In this document: one piece after another, positions 9,182-10,636 of the stretch
How positions within the stretch are numbered: the first letter of the stretch is position 1
How the letters are laid out: each line of letters opens with the position of its first letter
DNA from: an uncultured Opitutia bacterium
Lineage (GTDB): Bacteria; Verrucomicrobiota; Verrucomicrobiia; Opitutales; UBA953
Reading direction: 5' to 3'
Assembly: GCA_903913915.1 (NCBI GenBank)
Contig: CAIWNE010000094.1
Span: 62,001-126,000 of the forward strand
DNA: 64,000 nucleotides
Program-made: the position numbers and the translations under genes
Notes under the pieces: generated by a model
Database searches by the model: none
What the model saw: only the letters and a program-made list of their open reading frames with translations
What the model was told of the DNA's origin: nothing

Positions 9182-9574
9182 ATGGATTTCGACGAAGCCG
9201 TCCGCATCATCAGGCAGAAGGATGCCCGTTATCAGCCTCAGGCCTACGACGTGGTCCGCCTCGGCTTGGACCATGCTCAGAAACTGATCCATGGCGAACC
9301 GAAGAAGGGCAAGAGCGCCGTGAACCGCCATGTCAGCGGCCCGCAGCTGCTCGAAGGTTTCCGTCAGCACGTCCTCGAGACTTACGGCCCGATGTCCTAT
9401 CCGCTCCTCCATAACTGGGGACTGCGCAAATCCGCCGACGTCGGCAACATCGTCTTCAACATCATCGAGACGGGACTTTTCGGACGTTCGCCCGAAGACG
9501 ACCTCGAGGACTTCAAGGACGTCTACGACTTCAAGGACGTCTTCCAGAAGCCTTTCGAGCCTAAGTCGAACTGA
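9182..9574 (+). CDS. Minf_1886 family protein
   Basis: 130 aa; MDFDEAVRIIRQKDARYQPQAYDVVRLGLDHAQK...GPMSYPLLHNWGLRKSADVGNIVFNIIETGLFGRSPEDDLEDF resembles this PVC-conserved family. Confidence 0.85.
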   Translation: MDFDEAVRIIRQKDARYQPQAYDVVRLGLDHAQKLIHGEPKKGKSAVNRHVSGPQLLEGFRQHVLETYGPMSYPLLHNWGLRKSADVGNIVFNIIETGLFGRSPEDDLEDFKDVYDFKDVFQKPFEPKSN

Positions 9575-10636
9575 TCACGCGTTCACGAGGCTGATCGAGC
9601 GGACTTCCTGGCACCCGCGCAGGAGCCTGATCTTCGCCAGCATCGCCCGCTCATGGAAGCGGATCTCCGACTTGATGACGGAGTTCTCGCATTGGACCAC
9701 GAGCTTGCCTCCTTCGAGCACGCGCAGCGGCGCGGAGCGCTTCGCCAGCTTGAGGGGCAGCAGCTCGAGCCAATGGGCGACGATGGCCGTCTCCGGCACG
9801 GGTTTGTCCAGCCGGAGCTTCTTGAAGGCATCCTGCACCGCATCGTCGATCGTCTTCATCGCTCGGTCCGTGGAGCGGCCGCGGTCTTCGGGCAGGCCCC
9901 GGAGATTCGCCAGGAGGTTCTGGACGGTCCGGGAGAACTTCCCCTTGAGCTTTCCTTCGGTCAGCAAGGCGCGGACCGCGAACGGCGTCTCGGAGATCTT
10001 CTCGTTGCGCAGGCATCGGTCGGGCGCATGGGCTCCGCCCACGACCACGCCGGTGGCTCCGGCGTCACGCGCACCCTCGCCATCCTCGGTCGGGCTGTCG
10101 CCGAAGTGGACCAGGCCTGAGATGGAGCCGCCGAGGGCCCTGGCGGCCTGACCGAACGCCTTGGGGTCAGGCTTCGTGTAGCCGGTTTCTTCGGACAGGA
10201 AGATGCCGTCGAGATGCTTGGTCAACCCGTGCCCATCGAGGACTTTGCGCATGCGGGCATCGGCATTCGAAAGTACGCCCACCTTGACGCCGAGGAAGCG
10301 GATGGCGGAGATGGCTTGCAAGGATCCCGGCGCCAGACGCCACGACTCGGGGCGTTCGAAGGCCAGCCAGCATTCCTTGAACACCGGATCGATCTTCGAC
10401 GCCGGCAAGGCCGGACCGAAGCAACGTTGCACGACTTCCTTCCAGAAGACCTCAGGCTTGGCGTTTTTCGGACCGCCCTTGAAGGCCAGAGGGAACGCCG
10501 CGTCCAGCACCGCCGCCTCGACTTCCACTCCGTGCTTCATCGCGCAGGCCGCATAAACCCCGCCCACCGAGGGATGGGGGAAAAGCAGGGTGCCTGCTAG
10601 GTCGAAGGTGACGGCTTGGACTCGGGCCATGGGCAA
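9575..10636 (-). CDS. HAD-superfamily hydrolase with C-terminal DciA/DUF721-like domain (apparent fusion)
   Basis: 353 aa, one ORF. HAD motif I VTFDLAGTLL, motif II VGVLSNAD, motif IV GLVHFGDSPTEDGEGARDAG. C-terminus KFSRTVQNLLANLRGLPEDRG...VPETAIVAHWLELLPLKLAKRSAPLRVLEGGKLVVQCENSVIKSEIRFHERAMLAKIRLLRGCQEVRSISLVNA is DUF721-like. Confidence 0.8.
   Translation of the reverse strand: MPMARVQAVTFDLAGTLLFPHPSVGGVYAACAMKHGVEVEAAVLDAAFPLAFKGGPKNAKPEVFWKEVVQRCFGPALPASKIDPVFKECWLAFERPESWRLAPGSLQAISAIRFLGVKVGVLSNADARMRKVLDGHGLTKHLDGIFLSEETGYTKPDPKAFGQAARALGGSISGLVHFGDSPTEDGEGARDAGATGVVVGGAHAPDRCLRNEKISETPFAVRALLTEGKLKGKFSRTVQNLLANLRGLPEDRGRSTDRAMKTIDDAVQDAFKKLRLDKPVPETAIVAHWLELLPLKLAKRSAPLRVLEGGKLVVQCENSVIKSEIRFHERAMLAKIRLLRGCQEVRSISLVNA

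Follow-up and report, generated by a model that had tools for sequence, protein, structure and literature searches.

The stretch of DNA analyzed here (the window, 64,000 nucleotides) belongs to a draft genome of an uncultured Opitutia bacterium that is 94% complete and lies in 148 contigs. In it a minus-strand reading frame, listed as 9575-10636, is open from end to end and encodes a HAD domain followed by a DciA domain (Table 1). A TTG codon at 10636 lies two codons upstream of an ATG at 10630, and the start is placed at the latter, better codon because a Met start is common to the genus; the protein is then 351 amino acids long. The sequence-only reading had placed HAD and DciA in a single ORF, and this is borne out by the one open frame, by matches to both Pfam domains, and by the presence of the same fusion in relatives; the HAD-DciA fusion is real. 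Upstream of it, on the same strand, are nadB and a panE-like gene, whose position is kept in genera g1 and g5, while the convergent Minf_1886 gene and hisC keep their place in genus g1. This convergent neighbor (9182-9574, plus strand) encodes a Minf_1886 family protein (TIGR04138, 1e-37).

Table 1 Features of the HAD-DciA fusion gene, in window coordinates
Feature	Coordinates	Strand	Remarks
HAD-DciA fusion CDS	9575..10630	-	351 aa + stop; ATG 10630-10628, stop 9577-9575
HAD domain, HDHD3/REG-2-like, core + helical cap, ~residues 5-205	10016..10618	-	PF00702, TIGR02252, 3k1z
HAD motif I, D10-L-A-G-T14	10589..10603	-	nucleophile Asp kept; D+2 Asp replaced by Ala
Junction region, residues 197-277, short helices	9800..10042	-	pLDDT <50 throughout
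TTG codon (L222) proposed as internal start	9965..9967	-	present, not conserved
Conserved KFSRxVxNLLANLRGLP segment, residues 231-247	9890..9940	-	corresponds to N-terminus of stand-alone Opitutales DciA
DciA/DUF721 KH-like domain, residues 261-347	9590..9850	-	PF05258; predicted fold matches 7ykm, 8a3v

The HAD half matches PF00702 at residues 5-191 (E=1.7e-19), and its best NCBIfam family is the REG-2-like TIGR02252 (1.1e-40), although the fusion does not reach the cut-off of that family (139.6 vs 155.2 bits). Human HDHD3 (3k1z) is the best PDB match of this half both by sequence (3.8e-23) and by fold (6.9e-15); no substrate was found in the literature on HDHD3 and REG-2. The HAD superfamily residues of the window protein are D10 in motif I, S121 in motif II, K153 in motif III, and D178 and D183 in motif IV. 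Among 33 fused members with an intact site, six residues do not vary (D10, G13, T14, N122, K153, and D183). Ser or Thr occupies position 121, and 31 members have Asp at position 178 and two have Asn there. Two loci (L034 and L042, in genomes G009 and G024) encode fused HADs in which motif IV has GN for GD (D178N) and the rest is intact. The HAD motifs had been described as complete, which needs correcting because motif I (DLAGT) lacks its second Asp (D+2), which in HAD phosphatases serves as the general acid/base (PMC8069645, PMC12715507). All 33 intact members lack this second motif I Asp that marks the DxD-type HAD phosphatases, and have Ala (24), Thr (6), Phe (2), or Ser (1) in its place. 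The D+2 Asp is likewise missing from the HADs encoded separately next to dciA in other genomes and from human HDHD3 (DVKDT), so its absence is a trait of the subfamily and not an adaptation to fusion. HDHD3/REG-2-like HADs are the best match in sequence and fold and have a motif I that likewise lacks the second Asp, and the fusion differs from them in scoring below the TIGR02252 cut-off, in being joined to DciA, and in including one clade that has neither active site nor cap.

The C-terminal part had been read as DciA, and Pfam agrees: PF05258 matches residues 261-347 above its cut-off of 24 bits, with 48.2 bits (E=1.3e-12) for the full protein and 51 bits when the C-terminal part is searched alone. 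A phmmer search of the DciA part against the PDB gave no match. When this half is modeled separately, the model matches the solved DciA structures 7ykm (E=4e-4) and 8a3v (E=3.3e-3), both with probability 1.00, and so the DciA half is predicted to fold like solved DciA. The fusion shares with DciA (DUF721, PF05258), the ancestral bacterial replicative helicase loader, a C-terminal KH-like domain with an N-terminal extension ahead of it, and differs from known DciA proteins in carrying an extra N-terminal HAD of ~200 residues. The N- and C-terminal extensions differ among DciA proteins (PMC9865707, PMC9912922). In Vibrio cholerae DciA, a C-terminal hairpin touches DnaB (PMC9912922, PMC9865707), whereas the fusion is without such a DnaB-contacting C-terminal extension (PMC9912922). 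The KH-like domain of DciA, plus the N-terminal extension in Caulobacter, binds ssDNA and promotes DnaB loading (PMC12547741). The way in which DciA brings about DnaB loading is not settled, and a partner that awaits identification has been suggested (PMC9912922). The host genome has one DciA match and one DnaB match; the fusion is therefore the only DciA found in it. The ATPase family that includes DnaC has one above-cut-off match there, in a 479-aa frame, and there is a single strong REG-2-like HAD match, the remaining HAD matches being weak.

Relatives were searched for the same architecture in overlapping samples of 373 genomes of the order (Opitutales), 286 of the class, and 338 of the phylum. 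The window's family accounts for 77 of the 373 order genomes, and 60 of these 77, from all five genera, encode the whole fusion in a single frame (61 copies, two of them in G020). Four more have the fusion with a degenerate HAD, three have a partial match (G022, G047, and G071), and the ten in which a full match is absent are each 63-91% complete. In G022 and G071, the HAD and DciA halves are on separate contigs and a contig end cuts the DciA half. Wherever it can be read whole in this family, DciA is in the single-frame fusion, and no re-separated dciA gene was seen among the family genomes. No full-length single-frame fusion was found outside the family among the sampled order, class, and phylum genomes; elsewhere in the order and class DciA is short and stand-alone, as the earlier account had it to be usually. 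Some DciA matches lie in long frames (for example, 692 aa in G136) that may be chance. In family f35 of the same class, eight near-complete genomes (G127, G135, G143, G158, G163, G169, G173, and G178), several of which are one contig each, have no DciA match at E<=0.001. The fragmentation of the host draft genome into 148 contigs is the one point that could favor an artefact of assembly or a frameshift, and the probability of such an artefact is negligible, given that 60 genomes of five genera, assembled independently, contain the same fusion with conserved neighbors. Assembly error is ruled out by the occurrence of the fusion in 60 of the 77 family genomes.

The two halves meet in a junction that, judging from the low-confidence model, is probably flexible, and in the full-length model no contact is predicted between them. 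In the alignment, the stand-alone DciA proteins of the order start shortly before the segment [K]FSR..NLIANLRGLPE, and the same segment comes after the junction in the fusion. The ancestral start Met falls at about G230, where the aligned fused members have Gly or another residue and none has a start codon. The TTG proposed as an internal start does exist, as does an ATG at codon 258 of the window gene, and both codons, together with a flexible-looking junction that might be cut, are what would be expected if internal initiation or cleavage near the junction freed a short DciA, so that two proteins came from one frame. This is very improbable, however: conserved start codons are lacking up to and including the KFSR segment, the ancestral Met position is never a start codon, and synonymous variation in the junction is average. 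Among the aligned fused members no start codon is conserved anywhere in residues 212-262, and synonymous diversity at residues 211-240 equals the gene average. Thus, of the earlier proposal the TTG itself stands, but the production of two proteins gains no support from start codon conservation or from any raised synonymous constraint; cleavage in the junction may still occur. Initiation at TTG 222 is rejected because the codon is not conserved, and so, in view of the average synonymous variation, is an RNA or overlapping signal hidden in the junction.

In four other families (f8, f15, f18, and f20), dciA is a separate gene, and immediately upstream of it, on the same strand, is a gene for a REG-2-like HAD. 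As in the fusion, HAD comes before DciA in these pairs, both on one strand, and the DciA begins at the equivalent KFSR segment; the pairs differ from the fusion in being two genes split by a stop codon where the fusion is one frame. In genome G306 of f20, the HAD gene and dciA even share a frame, and only one TAA separates them. The HAD-dciA pairs in other families, the one in-frame pair with its lone TAA, and the position of the KFSR segment after the junction make it most likely, from these sequence comparisons, that the fusion arose by read-through (stop codon loss) of an ancestral HAD-dciA gene pair. Two ORFs with a stop codon at the junction had been set out beforehand as the finding that would count against the fusion. 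This arrangement does occur, but only in other families, and it shows the likely ancestral state, not an assembly error. In a tree of the HAD sequences, the fused HADs lie on one side of a branch with support 99/98, and the unfused HADs adjacent to dciA are not grouped with support. The tree therefore does not support a single origin of the adjacency, which may have arisen repeatedly.

The fusion may instead be passive, in that a stop codon was lost between neighbors and the HAD went on acting in metabolism and DciA in helicase loading, with only the polypeptide and the expression level shared. The short-spaced HAD-dciA pairs in several other families agree with this, as do the junction of ~80 residues, which is flexible and without contact between the halves according to the models, and the nucleophile, motif III Lys, and motif IV D183 that are invariant in 33 of 33 intact members. 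On the other hand, a passive fusion does not readily account for the lack of re-separated dciA genes among the family genomes or for a clade in which the HAD has neither active site nor cap and its core is nevertheless conserved about as well as DciA. Passive fusion is thus considered rather unlikely.

The clade in question comprises four genomes of genus g4 (G650, G057, G063, and G069; loci L119-L122), all MAGs of 75-94% completeness, in which a shortened HAD half is in frame with DciA. All four loci have lost the cap and the motif III Lys; Gly, Asn, Arg, and Asn stand at the nucleophile position, and in motif IV the Asp of GD is replaced by A, T, G, or V. A second strong REG-2-like HAD was not seen in any of the four genomes. 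The HAD core that is left (window residues 94-222) shows 41-53% identity among the members, compared to 31-48% for their DciA, and its nucleotide differences are 0.53-0.77 at third codon positions vs 0.34-0.44 at positions 1 and 2; the differences in the DciA of this clade are likewise concentrated at third positions. The four members form one clade (support 92/90) nested within the active members, which makes a single loss of the active site most likely; the codon pattern suggests that the core has since been kept by purifying selection. Since this clade keeps both the fusion and the HAD core, catalysis is not needed to keep the fusion. Conservation of the dead core can mean that it has a structural role, or just that an N-terminal passenger has to stay foldable or soluble.

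A catalytic explanation had been offered at the outset, in which the HAD would act as a sensor: by sensing a metabolite or phosphoprotein, or by removing its phosphate, it would control helicase loading. The nucleophile, Lys, and metal-binding Asp are intact in most members, as such a sensor would require, and the missing D+2, normally the general acid/base of the second step (PMC8069645), could slow turnover; in a variant of the idea, a long-lived phospho-aspartate might then act as a switch. But the dead clade still carries the fusion, and the loss of D+2 is a feature of the whole subfamily, stand-alone relatives and HDHD3 included, and not an adaptation of the fused proteins. The idea of a metabolic sensor is weakened accordingly and now appears improbable. 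This does not mean that the enzyme is idle: outside the dead clade the catalytic residues hardly vary, D+2 excepted, so that enzymatic activity is probably still selected, and on this sequence evidence most members probably keep it. The retained activity may be unrelated to replication, and we infer that it is not what holds the fusion together.

The explanation preferred here, to which a probability of roughly 0.5 is given, is that the HAD core has a structural role on DciA, with a side activity in most members; passive fusion ranks after it, and the catalytic sensor after that. The single-frame fusion would have come about when an ancestral HAD-dciA pair lost the stop codon between its genes, and in it the C-terminal KH-like domain would keep the DciA job with DnaB. 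Because the fusion has no DnaB-contacting C-terminal extension, contact is likely made by the conserved N-terminal segment, an arm with the HAD at its end. In Caulobacter, this N-terminal arm of DciA binds ssDNA; the HAD core would form a folded module on it and could help to position, oligomerize, or stabilize the loader. A fuller version of this structural explanation, in which a metabolic HAD was recruited as a structural part of the loader and one lineage then shed cap and active site with the core still under selection, is put forward only tentatively. The arrangement suggests that an enzyme is now a physical part of the replication machinery, and the fusion gives the impression of an enzyme that is partway toward becoming a structural component. 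In the literature searched, which did not include the chief survey of DciA architectures by Blaine et al. (2022; cited in PMC9912922), no account of a HAD-DciA fusion turned up. A family with a second folded domain in its only DciA, together with relatives in which the genes are split and a branch in which the HAD is dead, forms a comparison set for the role of the N-terminal arm.

The named contigs that carry the fusion are mostly from Opitutae or Opitutales MAGs, several of them from lakes according to their isolate names. One contig, CALPIW020000154.1 (L090), is filed under the betaproteobacterium Polynucleobacter meluiroseus and contains the fusion at 92% identity; it is probably a wrongly binned Opitutales contig. 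The two fusion copies of G020 (Verrucomicrobiota bacterium BS8; L075 and L093) are 93% and 64% identical to that of the window, and this bin is probably a mix of two species.
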